This document shows positions 27,293 through 62,423 of a stretch of 64,000 nt of DNA, piece by piece (position 1 is the stretch's first letter; the number at the start of each line of letters is the position of its first letter). A program made the position numbers and the translations under genes. The notes below the pieces were generated by a model. That model made no database searches, had not been told where the DNA came from, and saw nothing but the letters and a program-made list of their open reading frames with translations. Source of the stretch: Ureaplasma sp. Hg1 (GTDB lineage Bacteria > Bacillota_I > Bacilli_A > Mycoplasmatales > Mycoplasmoidaceae); assembly GCA_021378535.1 (NCBI GenBank), contig JAACJV010000003.1, positions 29,765-93,764 of the forward strand, read 5' to 3'.

Positions 27293-30200
27293 TTATTTAT
27301 CACTTTTACTAAATTTATTATTAACTTCAAAAACATCATCATTATTTTCTAAATTGGTGGTTCGTTTTTTAAAAAAACCTTTCGCATTGCGATTTTTGAT
27401 ATTTTCTTCTTCACTCGAACCACTAGGTTCATATAAATCAACTACATTAGTTTTTTTAAAATTAAGATTGTTGAAAAGCTTCTTTCTAGGGATTCCGTTA
27501 GCGTCAGTTTCTATTGCATCTAAGTCTAAAACTTTTGTTTTGTCTGAAACAGTTGGATCGTAATTACTTCCGCCAAGTTTTAACTCTGATGTGCCCTTGT
27601 TTGTTGTCTTAGCAAAGAAAGCATTAGTTTGGGACACTTCTTCACTAGCGTGTAATTCGCGCCGGTAATCATTAAAGTCTTTTTTAGGTCCTTCATCTTT
27701 CTTTGTTTCGTTTTTAAACCTTACATATCGTTCCATATCTTCAGCTTTACTTCATCTTGCTTTGGCAGTTGCTTTCGCTTTTTCCATATCGCTTCCTTGC
27801 GTTTTTGGAGCATTGCTAAACGAACCTGAAGCTTGGGTCCCATTGTTTTCTCTGGCTTCCCGTGCAATTTCAGATAAAGTTTTTTTACGTTCAGGTCGCG
27901 GTTGAGAATGATCTTGGGTTGAAACATTAGGTTTTACTTGTTTAGTTTCGGGTGAAATCGGGCGATTATCATTAGGGTCATCTACTAATCTGTTTGTACT
28001 AAATTTATATCATTTAACATTTGGTTTGTTGGGATCATCGATTTCATCGCTAACATTATGCTGCGGTCTATTTCGATGATTTTCATAATAGCTTATTTCT
28101 TCTTTTGTATTTCTATTTTTTGGTTCATAGTGTCTATCGTGAGGTGCGTCGCGATTATCGCCGAACGAAAAATCAGAAAGAATAATATTTTTATTATGAG
28201 CTACACTATTTCGATTGATATAAATAACCTCTTCATCGTTATCAAAGGTTTCGGTGCTATCAACATAATCAATTTCCTCTGCTTTAATTTTAGGATTTTG
28301 ACTTATGTAATTTTTATCTTCTTGTTTTTTCTTAACAATCTTGGGCGTTGGTGCTCCGATTGGACTCACTGCGTATATTGTTGTTATTGGAGCTACAGTG
28401 GGACTAATTATCGGAGGCGCTGCCTTGGGAGTGTTTTGATATATCGGCGCACTAACTGAAGATACTATAGCGGGAATAATGGGCGTTGGAGCTGGAGCGG
28501 GAATAATGGGCGTTGGAGCTGGGACTATAGCAGGTTTAATCATGGGAGTCGGTGGTTCCACGTATTCTTTAACCTCTTGCTTCCTAACTCTTTCAACTTC
28601 GTCTTTAGCGTACATTGAAGCCTTGTTTTTTATTTCATTAATCTCGAAATCTGTAAGAAGCGTATCTCTTATACTTTGGATATGTTTAACTTGTTCTGCA
28701 TTTGAACGATGTTTATCTCAAAGTTTATTGCCTTCTCTAATTGCCTTAAGTTGATCAGGTGGTAAAAGATTAACTTTGTTTTTGCTTCTGTTACTGAAAC
28801 CTAGTGTGTGGGGCGCTTTAACAACACTATCGTTGAATTCTAATCGAGGTGCGCCGATTCGATACTTGCTAGTAATACCAAGAATACTATCGATTTCATT
28901 TGCTATCCCACGGAATGTTTCAGATGTCATTGAACCATCATTTGCAGGATGAACAAGATGACGTAACCGAAGTTGATCATAAGCGTTGCGCGAATGATCC
29001 TCTTGATGAACAGGAATATTCTTTAATAATTTTTGTCTTTCCCTTTCGCCTGCAATTAATTTTTCATTGAAGTCCACTAGTGTGAAATTAGCTTCAAGGG
29101 GGCTAGGCTTATTGATTATTGTATCAAGAAGTGATAATTCTGATGGACTTGAATAAGAATTCGGTAATTCATAATAAGTGTTTTCATAAGGAACAAAATC
29201 ATTATTAATAGGCAATATTTCATTTCAATCAATAATTTTGTTTTTTGTCAATATATTTTGTTCAACAATATTAAGCATATCGTCATTAGAATCAAAGATT
29301 GATTCTAGGTAATTTCGCACAGAATCAATTTCAACATCAATTTTTTCTAATTCAAAATTAATTTCTTCATTAACCAACATTGATTCGGTATTGCCAATGT
29401 TCAAGATTTCCATATATGGCATGAAAATCTCTGGAGACGGCTCAATAAATTCATCTGGAGACGGCTCAATAAATTCATCTAAACTAGGATCAAAATATGT
29501 TGATTCAGGGTAAATATTTCCATATGAACGTGCGCATGATTCTGCAAAATCACTTATATTTGAATCTAATGAATCTAAATATTCTTGGCTTAATTCAGTA
29601 AATTCGTCTAAATATAAATTTCATTCAGAATTCCTGCTTCACATTGGATTAAAAAATTCTGGTGATGATTCAATAAAATTATTTGAATATAAATAAGGGT
29701 CAAAAAATTCATTTAAATAAGGAAGCGACTCATTAAATTCATCTAAACTAGGATCAAAATATGTTGATTCAGGGTAAATATTTCCATATAAACATGCGTA
29801 AGATTTTCTAAAATCACTTAAATTTGAATCTGAATTTTCTGGATTTAATTTAATAAATTCGTCTAAATATGAATCTCATTCAGGATTCCCGCTTCACATT
29901 GGATTAAGAAATTTTGGTGATGATTCAATAAAATTATTTGGATATAAATAAGGGTCAAAAAATTCGTTTAAATAAGGAAGCGACTTATTAAATTCACTAA
30001 TGTCCCTATCAAAATAATCTAAATCGATTTTATCAGATTCATTTACATCAGGATAAAAATATTCAGGAGCTGCAATAACCGGTGCTTCTAAATGTGGATT
30101 AAATTCATTAAGCTCGTTTATATTAGAGCTAAAAAATTCTGGTACTATCTCATCAAAATCGCTTAAATATGGATCCGCCTCGCCATACTCATTTAAATAA

Positions 30201-32671
30201 GGATCATAATAACTTGGAGCAGTTTTATCAAATTCATCTATATTGGAACTATAATATTCTGAATTGAATTCATCTAAACGAACATTTGTTTCATCAATCT
30301 CATTGAAGTTTGAATCAAAGTGTTCAGGAGTTTGCTCTCTAACTTCACGTGAATTTAGATTAGATTTGGCAAATTCATTTATGTTGGCATCAAAATATTC
30401 AGAATTTGTTCTAGAAAATTCACTAGCGTATGGATCTAATTCGTCAAATTCACTTATATTAGGGGCAAAATATTCGGGGTTTTGGCCACCAAATTCATTT
30501 AGGTTTGAATTAGGTCGCCCATATTCATTTTGGTAGGGGTCAAAATATTCGGGGGTTTGCTCGCCGAGTTCACTTGAATCCAAATTAGATTGCGCGAATC
30601 TATTTATATTGGCATCAAAATATTCGGGGTTTTGTTCATCAAAACTATTTTGACCCATATTTGATTGCGCAAATTTATTCATTTTAGCATCAAAATATTC
30701 TTGATTTGGTTCTTTAAATTTATTTTTTCCAATACCTGATTGAAGGTATTCATTTTTATAAGAGTCAAAATACTCTGGACCTTGTTTAACAAATTCTTTT
30801 CGATCTAGATGTGTTTGGATGAATTCATTTTTTCAAGAATTATAAGCATTCGGTGAGGTTCTATTATATTCTATCGGATCTAAATTTTTAGATCTTAAAT
30901 AATCATCAAATTGTAAATTAACGTTTCTGCTAGAGTCAAAATGCTCTGGGGCCTGCCCAGTAAATTCATTTTGTTTTAGTTGTGATTTGACAAATTCATT
31001 TTTTCAAATATTATAAGCTTCTGGTGAAGTTTTATTATATTCGACAGGATTTAAATTTTTAGTTTTTAAGTAATCATGAAATTGGGAATCAAATTTTCTA
31101 CTGGTGTTAAAAGATTCTGGACCGTGTTCAGCAAATTCTTTTTTATCTAGATATGATTTGATAAATTCATTTTTTCAAGAATGATAAGCTTTTGGTGAAG
31201 CTCTATTGTATTTAATGGGGTCCACTTTTTTAGTTCTTAAATATTCATCAAAGTGTGAATTAACATTTATATTCGGATCAAAATATTCGGTATCTCGTTT
31301 AGTAAATTCACTTTGTTCTAGATGTGCTTTGATGTATTCAGTTTTTTTAGAATTATAAGCCTCTGGTGAAATTTTATTAAATTCAATTGGATCTAAATTT
31401 TTAGCTCTTAAATAATCATCGAATTGAGAATCAAGACTTCTGGTTTTAATATTGGTAAAATTATTTGTTTTTTCATAATCCTCAGGGTATTTTATTTTTA
31501 ATGTTCTCGGAATGTCCGCTGATCGCCCTTGTGTATTTCTGTGATGAACATTACCAAAGTATTTGGTTTTAATACTTGAAGAAGAAATATTATCATGATC
31601 ATTTTTTCTGTTTTGATCATCAAATAAAGATTCTTGTTCGTAAGATTGGTGCGTTTTATATTTAGTGTTGTATGGGGTTGCTCCCCCTGCGGTTGCATTG
31701 ATATCATGCAGTTGCTCGTTAAGACGGCTTTTAATATTTCCCCTTGGGTTATTAGTACCTAAAATTGCATCTGCTTTGTTATAAACATTTTGTTTGATTT
31801 TAGAACCATTTTTATAAACATCAATGTTTTCAAAGTTTTTAAGATATTGACTTTTTGCAATAGCATCATAACTTTTATCAAGAATTGCATTGTTACGCGT
31901 ATTTTCAAGGTTTTTAATTTTTTGCAACGCGATTGGAATTGCGTTATATGATTTAATTCTTTTGTTGTTAGTTGAAAGAAACGACTTTGTCCCAGGCGCT
32001 TTTTTAGAATATAGGGCAGATTCTTCACGAATTCATTTATTAAATTTGCTGTAATTAGTGATTGGTAGTTTTAAGGTTGCAGTTTTTTCTAATCTCTCTA
32101 ACGGAATATAGTTGTCTTGAACTTTGTTTAAACGACGTTCAGCCAAACGAATTCTTTCATCACTTGATAATTCCATCTTTTGAGTCGGGTTAAAAACTAA
32201 CGTTCGGTTTTGTTTGTTTTTAAAATTATCCATATACTCTTTATCTAATTTACGAACTTTATCAATGTGGGTGTGGATTTGTTTTTGAACTTCATGTTCT
32301 TTAACCTTAGCTTTTTGAACTTCAAGATCGTAGGCATCAGGTTGATTGTAGATGCGTGAATTTTTATGTAATTGATAGAAGCTATTAACATTTTGGTCAA
32401 GTTTAGCATTCAACTCATTGTTCATAATATCTAATGTTAAAATATCTGTTTTATAAACTCTAAAAGGTTCGGCAGCAGAAGCTTTATTTAAATGCTCATC
32501 AAGGGTTTCAGGATGAAATTTATAAGTGATAATTGGATCTGCACGCCCTTTTTTAGGGTCAAAAAAAGGTGTAAAAGCTTCAGTTTCCTGTTGGTTCTTA
32601 ACAACGGTTTCATTGATGTACGAAACATCAGGTTCAATTTTCACTGTTTTATTTCTTTTAAACAACCCCAT
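27293..32671 (-). CDS. Giant (~1,792 aa) repeat protein: K/R-rich N-terminus, 57-aa repeats, EYFD-type acidic repeats, Pro-rich segment, charged C-terminus; candidate cytoskeletal/terminal-organelle-like protein
   Basis: ORF pieces at 27293, 28010, 28718, 29225, 29894, 31175 and 32033 share one frame; junctions checked open except for TGA. Start ATG 32671 preceded by GGAGGG. Confidence 0.8.
29431..29478 (-). repeat. Perfect 24-nt tandem duplication (DEFIEPSP x2)
   Basis: ctggagacggctcaataaattcat twice. Confidence 0.95.
29471..29790 (-). repeat. Near-identical duplicated blocks ~255-264 nt apart inside the giant gene
   Basis: aaattcatctaaactaggatcaaaatatgttgattcagggtaaatatttccatat at 29471 and 29735. 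Confidence 0.85.
30712..31396 (-). repeat. Four 171-nt (57-aa) tandem repeats: LDPIEYNrtSPeAYnsWKNEFIkshLdqkEFaeqgPEyFDssrnvnsqFDDYLrtKN
   Basis: Phase markers (GGATCTAAATTTTTAG-like) at ~31389, 31218, 31047, 30876 are spaced 171 nt. Confidence 0.85.
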
Positions 32672-32886
32672 GGCAACCCTCCGTAATAAGTTCTTATACA
32701 ATATAATTATACATTTTAATTATCAAGGTTAAATTACTTATACATATTATTTTAACAAATGGTTATCTAAAACAAGCAAAATTATCATTAATTACGGTGT
32801 AACACGAGTGTTTAATGAAAATTACGATTCTTAAAAATTATAACTATTCATTAAATTTTTGGTGTTAAATAATGCTTAAATCAAAT

Positions 32887-33474: not shown

Positions 33475-36400
33475 TTAGTGTTTGTTAATCCCTTGAATTT
33501 CTTGTTCATCAACTTTGTCATAGTTTTTACGTTTAACTTTATTGATTTTGTCAGAAGCGTGTTTTTGAGTTTGGTATAATTCTCTTAAACGAACAAAGTA
33601 ATATCAGAACGAAGGTAATAGGTTGATCGCTGCTAGATAACTAACTACCACACCAATTAGGATGGTTAAATCAAACCAGATTAAATCCTTTGAACCGAAG
33701 ATCATCAAGACAACCATTGCCATTATAATCATAAATAGATTCGTTGAATTTTCTTTAAGGTTTAAGTTTAGGTTTTGATTAATAATTTGTTGCAATTCAA
33801 CGCCTGTATAAATTTGTTTTTTATTTCATGTGCTTTTAATATTACTAACAACATTAACATTAATAATTGTTCCGATTGTAAAAGCGGTAATGCAACTAAT
33901 AACAGTGTTGATATCAACTGGCATTCGAACGATGCCAACAATTCCAACTAAAACCATTACGTTGAAGCAACCCATGATAAAGATTGGGATAATTGATAAA
34001 ACGTTTAAACTGATAAGCACATAGATTGATAAGAAGCCCAAACTAATGAACGAACCCTTAATCGCATCAATTGCTAAATTTTGCGGCAATAGACTTGAAG
34101 CTTCACTAATATTAAAATCATTACTTTTGATAACAGTTCCACTAACATTAGAATTGAAAGTTTGGAAGTTGCTAAAGCCTTCAACCGCATTCATTGTATT
34201 CTTAGTATTAATAACTAAGGTTGATCCATCTAAATGGTAACCCGTCACACTAATGTTTAAACTTGACGCTAAACTATTAACATAACTATTGATATCACTG
34301 TGAACATCATAACCATGACTAGTAACATTGTGAATCGTAATTGTCGCATTCGAGATAAAGTCCGGTGATGAACCAGGTCCTACTAAGGTGATAACTAAGA
34401 TTCCAACGATGGCAATAATTGTTAAAACAACTGCCACAATAATACTTTCAACTTTAAAGATATCGATATTAAAACGTCGTTTTGATTTTGTTTCTTCAAC
34501 AACATTGATGTTATTTAAATCGTTAGCATCCATACTTGCAAATAACTTTCGTTCATCCTTAATATATTTCATGTAACGTTTCGGAACATAAATTTTAAAA
34601 GTACTTTGATATTTTAAATGAACTGTAATAAAGGTTATCAACCATTGAAACAAGAACGAACATAGAAAGGACATTGCTGTCGTAACAACTAGCATTGATC
34701 CGAACCCTTGATTTTGTTCCTTTGTGAAATACAAGAAACACAATGCAATAATCATACTTGTGATATGAAGGTCTAAACCGGTTTTAAAATAAGCGTTAAA
34801 AGCACGTTTTTTTGCATTCTTAATATTAGCACCACTAATAATTTCGCGCTTAAATTTCTTAAACAATGATAGTGAAGGGGTAACCGCCAGGAAGACCCCA
34901 ATTAATAGAGCGGCGAGCGTGTCCGTCGTGAAGTTGAAATTCAGCGAAGCAAAAGCAACCAAAGTCATAACGACAGCAAAGACAACTCCAAGGAACATAT
35001 AAAAGCCCGGGATCCGATATAAGAAGGAAACAATAATCCCGATGATAAGAACAATAATTGAAACTCCAATCATCGTTCCCATAAAAGCGTTCATAGTGGT
35101 AACACTGTTACTTAAAGTTGGATCGAAAATAGTGATGTTACTAAATAATCAATCGTATGAAATATTATCACTATAATCATCTGCAACTACTTTATAGTTG
35201 AAGATCGGTAGTTCGATGTGTGCCTTTTGTAAATAATCACGGGTTGAAACAGCTGCACTATAACCAGCACTAACATCATATTTCATTTCGTTTGTATCGT
35301 AAGGTTTAGTATCATCAGAGCCACTATCACTACTTAAATTTTCAAAAACTTGTTCAAAGTTTTTATAATCTATTTTCTTTAATAAATAACCATCGGTTAA
35401 TCCAGAAATTAAAGTACTGTCGGAATTTAAGAAATCATAATCAACATAAGCAGTATCATCGCCAAGCCCAGCAGATGGTGCCGGTGGAACGTATTGACTT
35501 TTAGCAAATTCATTTAATAAATACATTAAATTATCTTGCGTAATAATATTAATTGCTTTTTTACCTTTATCAGATCATTTTTGTTGGTCGGGATTAAGGT
35601 TATTATAAATGGCTTGAACTTCACGATATTGATCAATTTCGCTAGGCTTATTATACATTGTTGTTAATTTCCCTAATAATAAAAGGTTATTTAACTCATC
35701 GATGAATTGATCTTTATCTTCTCATAATACTCAGGTGTAATCGGTTTTACCTTTTGTGCCTTTATTTGCATCATCTTTTAAAACGTTAGTTTGAGCTTGA
35801 GTTGGTGAAGATGCTGGTGTTGGATCTTCAGCTTCTTCGTCTTTCTTTTCACTAAAAAAACTGTCTAAATTAAAGTTTTGTTTATTAGTGAATTTCAAAT
35901 AAGCACTTGAAGCAGTTGGATTAGAAATGTCAATCCCATTCATATAAAAGGTATCGTCATCAAAAACTAAAGAATTATTATCTTTGCTTGATTTTGATCC
36001 ATTAATGAAATTTTTATTACCGGTTGTTGTTTTTCTTAACTCAGTATAATCATCTAATTGAAGTGTAGCAGAACGGTTAATTTGACTATAAATTTTAAAT
36101 TGGTTACTTTTTAAGGTGTTAGTGGTATCGTCGCTCGAAGAAGAATCATCAATGTTTCAAATGTTATTAGCATCTTCAAAATGAGTTGATAAAATCCCAT
36201 AAGGAATCACATCACTACCATCTAAATAACTACTAATACTATATGAGACATCAATTTGTTTTAAACCCATTATTTCTAATCGATTAGCTAAAGCATCAGC
36301 TGATTCTGATAATTTTTTATCCTGTGATGCCGAAGTATCTTTGGGATCTAACTCAACATCAATTTTTGTTTCATAGCCCTGCCCGAAATCATTACCTAAT

Positions 36401-36537
36401 TTATTATCGGTGGCAAAATAATTGATTCCAAAACCAATTCCTGTGATGGAACCGATTAATAAAGCAAATAAAAGAAGATACTTGGAAAATTGAACCCACG
36501 GTGTATCTTTAATTTTTTGTCATAATTTTTTAAACAT
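33475..36537 (-). CDS. secDF: SecDF protein-export membrane protein (fused SecD-SecF)
   Basis: ~1,020 aa; N-terminal TM + GIGFGINYF...; two blocks of RND-like TM helices; pieces in one frame. Confidence 0.85.
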
Positions 36538-44257: not shown

Positions 44258-44332
44258 GGTGCCATAGCCAAGTGGTAAGGCCAGAAGCTGCAACCTTCTT
44301 ACGCGCCGGTTCAAATCCGGCTGGCACCTCCA
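44258..44332 (+). tRNA. tRNA-Cys(GCA)
   Basis: Cloverleaf; anticodon loop CTGCAAC. Confidence 0.95.
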
Positions 44333-44337
44333 TATAC

Positions 44338-44414
44338 GCGCCCTTAGCTCAATTGGATAGAGCGCCTGACTTCGGATCAGGAGGTTGGGAGTTCGAGTCT
44401 TCTAGGGCGCGCCA
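44338..44414 (+). tRNA. tRNA-Arg(TCG)
   Basis: Cloverleaf; CCTGA CTTCGGA TCAGG. Confidence 0.95.
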
Positions 44415-44418
44415 TTAT

Positions 44419-44495
44419 CGGGAAGTAGCTTAGCTTGGTAGAGCACTTGGTTTGGGACCAAGGGGTCGCAGGTTCAAATCCTGTCTTCCCGACCA
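44419..44495 (+). tRNA. tRNA-Pro(TGG)
   Basis: CTTGG TTTGGGA CCAAG. Confidence 0.95.
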
Positions 44496-44500
44496 TTTAT

Positions 44501-44578
44501 GGCTGGATAGCTCAGTTGGTTTAGAGCGCTCGGTTCATACCCGGGAGGTCCTGAGTTCGAGTCTCAGTCTAGCCACCA
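44501..44578 (+). tRNA. tRNA-Met(CAT), elongator type
   Basis: CTCGG TTCATAC CCGGG; normal 1-72 pair. Confidence 0.9.
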
Positions 44579-44583
44579 TATAA

Positions 44584-44660
44584 GCACCCATAGCTCAATT
44601 GGTTAGAGCCCCCGACTCATAATCGGTAGGTTGCAGGTTCGAGTCCTGCTGGGTGCACCA
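44584..44660 (+). tRNA. CAT-anticodon tRNA, probably tRNA-Ile2 (lysidine-modified)
   Basis: Loop CTCATAA; normal 1-72 pair; Ile2-like rather than Met-like loop. Confidence 0.85.
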
Positions 44661-44740
44661 TTATAAATAAAAGAAAACAAAATGTTTTTTTAACTTGATT
44701 GTAATTATGTTACAATCATTAGGTTTTAAAAAACATCTAC

Positions 44741-44833
44741 GGAAGATTACCCAAGTCTGGTTGAAGGGATCGGTCTTGAAAACCGAAAGGCGGGGCAACT
44801 CGCGCGGGGGTTCGAATCCCTCATCTTCCGCCA
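44741..44833 (+). tRNA. tRNA-Ser(TGA)
   Basis: Long variable arm; CTTGAAA loop. Confidence 0.95.
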
Positions 44834-44880
44834 TTTTATTAAACATCATTAACTACTTATAACCACTTAGTTAATGTTAT

Positions 44881-44958
44881 CGCGGGATAGAGCAGTTTGG
44901 TCAGCTCGTCAGGCTCATAATCTGAAGGTCGGGGGTTCGAATCCCTCTCCCGCAACCA
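44881..44958 (+). tRNA. Initiator tRNA-fMet(CAT)
   Basis: C1-A72 mismatch (CGCGGGA...TCCCGCA ACCA). Confidence 0.9.
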
Positions 44959-44959
44959 C

Positions 44960-45035
44960 GGTCCTGTGGTGTAGTGGTTAACATGCCTCTCTGTCACAGA
45001 GGAGATCGCGGGTTCAACTCCCGTCAGGACCGCCA
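44960..45035 (+). tRNA. tRNA-Asp(GTC)
   Basis: CCTCT CTGTCAC AGAGG. Confidence 0.95.
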
Positions 45036-45036
45036 C

Positions 45037-45112
<76 letters not shown>

Positions 45113-45215
45113 TGTAATAAATGTAAAAGGATACTTTTGTATCTTTTTTTATTTATTATTAATCTTTTAATAATAAATAAAAAAATTGTTATATACTTAA
45201 AATAGCAATAAACAT

Positions 45216-45292
45216 GCGCCCTTAGCTCAATTGGATAGAGCGCCTGGCTACGGACCAGGAGGTTGGGAGTTCGAGTCTTCTAGGGCGCGCCA
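45216..45292 (+). tRNA. tRNA-Arg(ACG)
   Basis: CCTGG CTACGGA CCAGG; rest matches the tRNA-Arg(TCG) at 44338. Confidence 0.95.
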
Positions 45293-48703: not shown

Positions 48704-50446
48704 ATGAACGAACAAAAATTATCAAAAACGATGGATGCTAAATTTTTTCAAGAACTTAATAAATCTACAATTTTGAATTCAATTTTTAATGTTTCTGCAA
48801 TGATTACAATTCTTGTTTTTAGTTTTGTTAGAACGTTCTATATTGATAGTACATTTGGTGCTGGAGCTTTAGGATTATTATCAATTGCTTTAGGAATCCT
48901 ACCTTATGTTAGTAACACTCATGGCGGAATAAAAAGCATTAGTACTTGACGCTTATATAAGCCATATAACGATGGAGATTATATGCGTGTTAATCATGTT
49001 ATGAGTGATATTAAACATCAATATCGTAAAATGGGTGGAATTTACTTATTAGTTATTTTAGCAATAGCATTTGCTTTCCCCTTTATTATAAGTAATTCAA
49101 CCAGTGATCCATGATATCTTGGAACACTATTGATTTTAAGTAATTGTGTTGAAGTTATGGTTACTTATTTCTATGTACCAATCATCATTCTTTTATTGTA
49201 TGTTAAGAAACAAGCATATTATGCTAATGCCTTAAGCATTTTTTTAACAATTATCTTTAACGTTGCCATTATTCTTATGTTTGAATTTTTAGCTGATCAG
49301 TTAAATCCAATTATTTTTTTAACAATCATCACTGCAATTCTAGGCTTCAAAGTTTTCATTTTAATTTTTATTTTCAATCGTTTAAAATTCAAAATAGCAC
49401 CATGATATAGTAATACGAAACATGTTGATAATGCATACTGTAAGGAAAAATGAATGGCAATGTTAACAATGTTTTTAGATCAATTTGGAACTGATGTTTC
49501 AACTATTACTTTTATGATTTATGTTTCAGTTCGTCCTCAAACAAAAGACGATGGCAACGGCGCCCTCGATTATGGTAATTTGGACATTGCAGGATTATAT
49601 GCCGCCTATTATCTAATTGGCACTTCCTTAACACAGATCTGCCATACCATTCTTGATGCACCAGTGCCATCAATTGGTGAGCTCGCCCGAAACCACAAAA
49701 AAATGCCTTATGATTTTTTTGATAAATACCGGAGTTTTGCTTACATTGTTGCAATATTTAGTTTTGTTAGTTATCTAACGGTCGCCCCGTTAGCAGCAAA
49801 TATTTTATTAGCCCAGCCTGAATTTTCATTAGTATTGGCATTAGGTTTGGGCATACCAATCTTTTTTGAAAACCTAACTGTTGTTTACACACACACCCTA
49901 CCAGCTTTTGGTAGATTTAGCGATAATTGTAAATATTCTGGTTATAAAGCAATTACCAATCTTTGCTTTACTGCGTTCTTTTGTTTGATTTTTAGTACAG
50001 CAACAAACTTAGGAGACAGCGGTATATTACTTGGAATCGTTTTGGGTTGAACAGTAAGTTCAATTACGAAATATGTTCTTCTATTTAATTATGGTCGTAG
50101 AACTTTAGTTGAAGGAAAAGCAACTAAATCAATGCTTAACCGTTGAATTTCGATTATTACAATACCTGTCATTATTTTTATTACAATGGCTATTGTATAT
50201 AATGTGAGTCCTCCGTTAATGTCATATAAAATGCCAAACGGTAAAGATGGTATGAGACTTTCATTAACTAATAATACAATGTTTTGTTTAACATTTTTAT
50301 TACCACCAACTATCTTAATAGTTGATGTCGCCTGACTTAGTTTAAGTCAAAAAGAAAACTTTAAATATTTCTATGATAATGGAAAGGCAACAATTCATAT
50401 TTGACGCCAAGAAAGAATAGAACACCGTTTTAATAAGAAAAAATAG
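48704..50446 (+). CDS. Multi-TM flippase-like transporter (MOP/MATE-type fold suspected)
   Basis: ~12-14 hydrophobic segments; 580 aa under code 4. Confidence 0.6.
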
Positions 50447-60629: not shown

Positions 60630-62423
60630 TTAATTTATATGATTTTCTTTTTCAAGTTCTTTAATATTTATCATTTTAGTAATTTCAATAGCTATTTCAT
60701 CTAGTCTTTTATTAAGTACATTAATCTCTGCTTCCATTTCTAGAATTTCAGTATTAAATGTATTCGGATTTTCATGATCCATTGTATTATTCAATTTAAT
60801 TAATTCCTTTTGGATATTAATTTGTTTAAGTTGAATATCAAAAGTTTCATCATTAATTTCTGTAAACCATTCAATAAATTCAATGTATTTAGTTGGATCA
60901 TCTAACGAAATATTATTAAGAATATTTTCTGCATGTTTTAATACAACATCAATGTCATTGCTATCATCATCCATATTACTTATACCAAACTCATCAGAAG
61001 GTTGAAGTAACATTGATGCTTTCGTTTCACGGATTATTCCTTTGTTAGAAAAGCCTTCTTCTCTAGTCGCTATTTGTTTTTTATTATCAACGTTTACTTT
61101 TGTTGTAGTTTCTACTTTAGGTGTTGTTGTAACCTTTGTTTTTGTTGCAACTTTCGGTTTAGGTGTTGCCTTCTTTTTAGATGTAGTTTTTTTAGCTTTA
61201 GGTGTTGCCTTCTTTTTAGCTTTAACAACTGCCACTTTTTCAAGTGAATTTTCTTCTAATTTTTTAAGGCGAGCTTTTTCGATATCAAGTTTTGCTTTAC
61301 GCATTTCTAAAGCTTTCATTTCATCGCCTAGTTCAACTGAATCCTCAACTGAATCCTCAACTGAATCCTCAACTGAATCCTCAATATTTTCTTGATTAAT
61401 TATTGAATCTGGTTCTGCTTGATATTCATCTTTATTTGCATTTTGTTCTTCTAATTCTTTAAGTTTTGCTAAGTGCTTCTCACGGGCTGTCATTCCATTA
61501 TCATCACCATGTAAAGATTTAGAATAAGCGCCTAATTTTGATTCGTTACGTTCCTTAATTTCTTTAATTTTTTCGTCTCGAATTTCTTTTGCTGTTTTAA
61601 CACTTTCATCATTAGATAAAATTGGGGCGACATTTTTAAGCGGTGTATAACTACTTTTGATATTCAAATTGGGTTTTTTTGAAGTAGGTATATAATTGTC
61701 ATTATCTTCTTCATCTTCTTCGTATTCTTCATCTTCATTTATCTCAGATTTATTACTTAAACAACTATAAATTAATTCACTAATAAGTGCGATAATTATA
61801 AATAAAATACCTCCTACAACAAAACTATCAGCTCAATTAAAATCAAACCAAGGTCATTTAAAATAATCAACAACATTATTACTTCAATAAATTTTGTCAC
61901 CACTAGCATTAACAACTACATCAACAACGCAGCGATCAACAACATTTCCTAAACCACCAAAGAACACAGCATAAACAGTTATTATGTATCATCATTCTGT
62001 AATGAAGATGCTAACTATTAAAGCTATAACAACAGGTATTAGTTGAATTATCAGCACTACCGCTGGACTACCCGAATCTAACATGCCAAATGCAATTCCA
62101 GAATTAGGTACAACTCACAATCCTCAAGTAGGAGCACCAATATAATAATTAATTGTGGGATCTACATCTGCCCCTGGTTTTAAATTTTTTAAACCATAAT
62201 CTGCAAAATTACTTGTAAAATAATCTCTTAAAAAATACCAACCTAATCAAAAAATAACACCTAATATAATAAAGCTAAGCACTTTAATAAATATAGTTTT
62301 ATAAGAAAAAAGCTCATTAATATATTCGCGGCGTGAATCATTTTTAATTTTGTTTCATAAATTTGTGAATAAAACTCTATCAAAAAAATTATCTTCTACA
62401 TTATCATTAAATTTTTCAGTCAT
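60630..62423 (-). CDS. lspA: Signal peptidase II with ~370-aa low-complexity cytoplasmic C-terminal extension
   Basis: 'NSGIAFGML', 'GGLGNVVDRCVVDVVV', 'FNWADSFVVGGI'; frame continuous into the ORF 60630-61667 extension (junction translated and open). Confidence 0.88.
61333..61380 (-). repeat. 12-nt perfect tandem repeat x4 (EDSV) in lspA extension
   Basis: (tcaactgaatcc)4. Confidence 0.95.

Follow-up and report, generated by a model that had tools for sequence, protein, structure and literature searches.

A 1,792-residue Ureaplasma protein with conserved ends and a repeat array missing from its ortholog

Results

A 1,792-codon gene read with table 4

The window analysed here is a 64,000-nucleotide stretch of contig JAACJV010000003.1 of Ureaplasma sp. 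Hg1. The source genome was assembled to 1.16 Mb in 42 contigs and is 85% complete, and genome-wide questions on it were addressed through family searches. The sole other genome of the genus in the set searched, 'MAG: Ureaplasma sp. Hg2' (79% complete), was used for comparison.

Translation from 32671 to 27293 with table 4 gave one uninterrupted CDS of 1,792 codons, in which 12 TGA codons are read as Trp and the single stop codon is terminal. The original prediction had joined TGA-interrupted ORFs into one 5.4-kb CDS hidden from standard-code calling, and both points were confirmed, the standard-code gene calls breaking the protein into fragments. The predicted block layout (four 57-aa units, a 25-aa ladder, an ~85-aa duplication, a Pro-rich block and charged ends) was likewise found in full. 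The gene and its upstream region comprise the following features.

32695..32760 (-): conserved promoter block with extended -10 TGTATAAT, TATAAT at 32711-32706; 85% identity to the upstream DNA of the ortholog
32677..32682 (-): Shine-Dalgarno-like GGAGGG, 5 nt upstream of the ATG; a similar purine-rich GGAGGG precedes the ortholog start
27293..32671 (-): whole CDS, 1,792 aa, 208.6 kDa, pI 5.2, ATG start, MGLFKRNK..., table 4
31469..32671 (-): conserved N-terminal region, residues 1-401 with core 1-300, basic; 75% identity, dN/dS 0.12
30752..31435 (-): four 57-aa units, residues 413-640, each with a ~40-residue helical segment and a ~17-residue linker and containing one 25-aa unit
30002..30751 (-): acidic 25-aa ladder, residues 641-890, consensus xxNEFxxSxLxxxEFxxxxPEYFD; predicted disordered
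29447..30001 (-): 85-aa tandem duplication (~897-1066) and degenerate 25-aa units, residues 891-1075
28562..29446 (-): middle region, residues 1076-1370, conserved at 1076-1125 and 1286-1306 (TLGFSNRSKNKVNLL)
28322..28561 (-): Pro-rich block, residues 1371-1450, 26% Pro; nearly missing from the ortholog
27296..28288 (-): charged C-terminal region, residues 1462-1792, with short conserved islands

Shuffling the bases of the gene 200 times gave open frames of at most 159 codons, and the remaining five frames of the span contain 48-176 stops each. TGG is absent from both the gene and its Hg2 ortholog; all three Trp codons of the ortholog are TGA and align with the TGA-encoded W213, W1318 and W1554 of the 1,792-aa protein.

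The ortholog retains both ends and lacks the middle

The ortholog is a 1,085-aa protein encoded on JAACJW010000034.1 (L005:4013-7270) of MAG: Ureaplasma sp. Hg2. The gene order common to both genomes is relA←|→secDF–apt–X, where X is the 1,792-aa gene or its ortholog, and Hg2 ORFs that match relA and ctpS in size and orientation lie divergent from secDF, as in the window. The two proteins share their start, their position after secDF-apt, the conserved N-terminal region and the C-terminal islands. The dN/dS of residues 1-300 is 0.12, and that of the C-terminal conserved parts is 0.26-0.33 versus ~1 in the linker 1126-1285; these values and the conservation are those of one ortholog pair, with an interspecies dS of ~1.2-1.5 that is near saturation. 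The fast-evolving linker separates the conserved stretches 1076-1125 and 1286-1306, and the conserved C-terminal blocks (1482-1507, 1546-1572, 1734-1748 and 1767-1781) are short islands amid fast-evolving sequence, a docking-motif-like pattern. The N-terminal region carries a net charge of +18 and is predicted to be mostly helical by AlphaFold from two sequences, at very low confidence (pLDDT 38), so that its fold is not derivable from the model.

The ortholog differs in that the repeat block (residues ~402-1075) is missing entirely and the Pro-rich block (~1371-1450) almost entirely, its N-terminal region being joined to the equivalent of residue ~1076 via a short stretch. A collapsed assembly is unlikely to explain the short ortholog, in which no clear repeat unit is left. 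The 1,792-aa protein is thus a mosaic in which a conserved N-terminal region and C-terminal motif islands are split by species-specific expansions. Since the repeats are missing from the ortholog, they cannot carry the conserved function of the gene.

The 66-bp promoter block is 85% identical between the two species, versus 52% identity with many gaps in the remaining intergenic DNA, and the start at MGLF is backed both by the ortholog, which shares this position, and by the GGAGGG in front of it. These features indicate that a promoter of its own probably drives the gene and that translation probably begins at MGLF rather than at an upstream in-frame TTG. The gene is real, and the presence of an ortholog in matching gene order, the purifying selection and the conserved promoter block together show that it is functional.

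Among other genera of the family, 20 regions were compared for what lies 3' of apt; their contents vary and include no relative of the 1,792-aa protein. With housekeeping neighbours and a variable slot after apt, the gene context is uninformative on function, and the protein is an orphan in a variable slot.

One repeat family, recently expanded or homogenised

Each 57-aa unit consists of 32 + 25 residues, and its 25-aa part is the unit of the adjoining ladder. The 57-aa and 25-aa units, which had been described as distinct blocks, therefore form a single family, and all repeats of the array derive from one 25-aa unit. About ten 25-aa units had been counted; a 25-aa profile revealed ~17 clear ones, those within the 57-aa units included, with 13.9-37 bits versus at most 7.2 in 1,000 array shuffles, the scores of the 15 units from which the profile was built being favoured. 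The 85-aa duplication is less similar than the 'near-identical' of the original prediction, with 88% matching nucleotides over 255-nt periods and 91% over the best 172 nt. A perfect 27-nt tandem pair was also found at 28469-28522, within the Pro-rich block.

The aromatic content of the array is 17.5%, versus 7.9% elsewhere in the protein, and the aromatic positions recur every 25 and 57 residues. Acidic residues make up 19% of the array, and the net charge of residues 641-1075 is -70. In a single-sequence AlphaFold model of residues 402-720, pLDDT was ~75-87 inside the 57-aa units, which form ~40-residue helical segments, below 50 in the linkers and ~35 in the modelled part of the 25-aa ladder (residues 641-720). 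The composition and the low pLDDT suggest that the ladder is disordered.

Silent divergence is 0.40-0.79 among the 57-aa copies and 0.10 over 57 codons of the 85-aa duplication, lower than the interspecies ~1.2-1.5. The array was therefore formed or homogenised later than the divergence of the two species; in this two-species comparison, either later expansion or recombination that homogenised the copies would explain the pattern. The top match of the 25-aa profile in the ortholog scored only 7.7 bits; it coincides with the junction of the array (residues 413-426, ...DSLIEPTPEIF), and a half-unit in the ancestor may tentatively be taken as the seed of the repeats.

The repeats could be a tolerated, near-neutral tandem expansion in a flexible linker, with the ends serving an unrelated housekeeping function, e.g. 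with the basic N-terminal region binding nucleic acids or membranes. The absence of the array from the ortholog, its location in poorly conserved sequence, the positive charge of the N-terminal region and the 85-aa duplication (dN/dS 1.7 over 57 codons) are consistent with this explanation. The 57-aa copies, however, keep a dN/dS of 0.3-0.7 and a register-perfect motif, and a neutral 2-kb array should decay or gain stops, yet the frame is intact; we consider this explanation rather unlikely.

As predicted originally, neither a transmembrane segment nor a signal peptide was seen in the 1,792-aa protein, the highest 19-residue Kyte-Doolittle mean being 1.33, inside the Pro-rich block, and no lipobox was found. 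The cytoplasmic location proposed earlier is compatible with all evidence and probable. Host-exposed mollicute proteins often vary through tandem repeats, and the PEYFD tyrosines are regularly spaced in the array. An exported or surface tandem-repeat protein contacting the host is nonetheless highly improbable, as export and anchoring signals are missing and the conservation lies in the ends, not in the repeats.

Searches for relatives

The full protein had no match in Pfam, NCBIfam or PDB sequences, and the whole protein gave no credible match beyond Hg2 when searched against 60 genomes of the order. No credible match was obtained with profiles of both conserved ends in ~320 other genomes of the order, or with the N-terminal profile in ~295 genomes of the class. 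The N-terminal region had no match in viral contigs, phages or plasmids, and a Foldseek search with the repeat model against PDB and BFVD returned nothing significant. The failure of the original prediction to recognise a homolog was therefore reproduced in Pfam, NCBIfam, PDB and ~320 genomes of the order. Together, the searches indicate a lineage-specific family with two known members that belongs to no tested family.

Several weak matches were inspected and rejected. Matches of the N-terminal profile to ferritin and apolipoprotein A-I in PDB (E ≥ 0.077) were read as helical composition noise, and the inspected weak matches of a 57-aa-unit profile in 324 genomes were chance fragments, e.g. 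in an endonuclease-IV-like ORF. L065 (G287:C12:37921-38028), the C-terminal tail of a membrane protein resembling glycosyltransferases, reads IKFNKYDPSQFIHYKNAYVQSSKIKDAFYQAHPEYF and is similar to the second portion of the 57-aa unit; this match (E 1.4e-4 in its genome) is probably due to chance. Residues 482-537, within the 57-aa repeats, gave a marginal profile match to the phage family phrog_11861 (104 positions; E 1.3e-4, 23 bits), but no single stretch passes alone and the family was not reached in the genome search. The best phage tblastn hit had E 0.1 at 27%, and the unconfirmed phrog_11861 match was treated as chance or composition.

Comparison with terminal-organelle proteins

The EAGR box is a hallmark of M. 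pneumoniae-type terminal-organelle proteins, which the architecture of the 1,792-aa protein had been said to resemble. The EAGR box (PF16713) was not found in this protein, which has no Pfam match at all. The source genome, at 85% completeness, contains only a sub-threshold 11-residue match (E 0.021), and the Hg2 genome contains none at E 0.01. In another genus of the same family, which we take to be Mycoplasmoides partly from this EAGR content, four of five genomes, searched in the same way, had 7-21 matches each, most of them over the cut-off. The absence of the EAGR box from both members of the genus is informative despite the incomplete genome. The P30 adhesin family (PF07271) was not found in the 85% complete source genome, a search run without a related positive-control genome. 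No homology to the terminal-organelle APR proteins (P65, HMW3) was detectable by order-wide, NCBIfam and Pfam searches run with the 1,792-aa protein or its conserved ends. Membership in a terminal-organelle family is not supported by these searches.

In M. pneumoniae, the EAGR box occurs in HMW1, P200 and TopJ, and extended disordered regions are unusually abundant in the organelle core proteins (PMC12323609). P65, whose APR consists of DPN(Q)AY repeats, also contains coiled coils and assembles into multimers that have disordered filaments; P65, HMW1, HMW3 and P200 are internal, APR-bearing and largely disordered, P65 also having some helix (PMC11940719). The 1,792-aa protein may resemble these four proteins in its acidic and Pro-rich content, in the disorder predicted from its composition and low pLDDT, and in its probable internal location. 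It differs in having no sequence match to them, in coming from a genome without the EAGR box and in its repeat motif, a PEYFD/NEF ladder rather than the DPN(Q)AY of P65. The resemblance is purely compositional, and it rests on the acidic repeats and the Pro-rich block, which are separate blocks in the 1,792-aa protein and both missing from the ortholog. A compositional and functional analogy to the disordered APR proteins of M. pneumoniae is possible, whereas the earlier comparison is unsupported as a relationship.

The protein might belong to a polar organelle for attachment or gliding, as a functional equivalent but not a homolog of P65, HMW1, HMW3 and P200. The disorder of the M. pneumoniae core proteins and the repeats, coiled coils and multimers of P65 would agree with such a role, as would the acidic/aromatic repeats with FDPN/FDPY motifs, the Pro-rich block and the helical predictions of the 1,792-aa protein. 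We regard it as unlikely, given that neither genome of the genus has an EAGR box while four Mycoplasmoides-type genomes do, that the P30 family was not found and that the parts most reminiscent of organelle proteins, namely the repeats and the Pro-rich block, are those missing from the ortholog.

Proposed function

We favour, at about even confidence, a soluble scaffold or tether that is specific to the genus, lies in the cytoplasm and carries an expandable acidic/aromatic spacer. Partners would be bound at the two ends, by the conserved N-terminal region and, through motif-type binding, by the short C-terminal islands, and the species-specific, acidic and aromatic-rich middle would set the reach between them. 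This spacer would have grown through tandem duplication of the 25-residue unit and may itself serve as a multivalent sticker chain. A bolder version, which we hold to be quite doubtful, makes the protein the backbone of a cytoskeletal or polarity structure inside the cell. Such a structure would have evolved in this genus separately from the known mycoplasma organelles, its length being tuned by the rapidly expanding 25-residue repeat. If structural, the protein would be one more example of cytoskeletal proteins arising independently in mollicutes.

In a wall-less bacterium with a small genome, ~670 residues appear to have been added to a conserved protein within one genus via one amplified 25-residue motif, with both ends of the protein staying under purifying selection during the growth of the repeats. 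The ortholog serves as a naturally occurring deletion, a control by which conserved function and decoration can be told apart.

Additional features of the window

The secDF-apt order is kept across much of the family. The SecDF of the window (1,020 aa; 33475-36537, -) scored 176 bits versus the NCBIfam SecDF cut-off of 500; with a score this far under the NCBIfam cut-offs, it could escape or be misnamed by automatic annotation. The sole Pfam match of a 597-aa ORF (60630-62423, -) is signal peptidase II at residues 98-214. Bacterial LspA is usually ~160-200 aa long, so this ORF has long extra N- and C-terminal parts. Two further ORFs, of 580 aa (48704-50446, +) and 340 aa (193-1215, +), had no Pfam match. 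Ten tRNA genes are clustered within ~1 kb at 44258-45292 (+).
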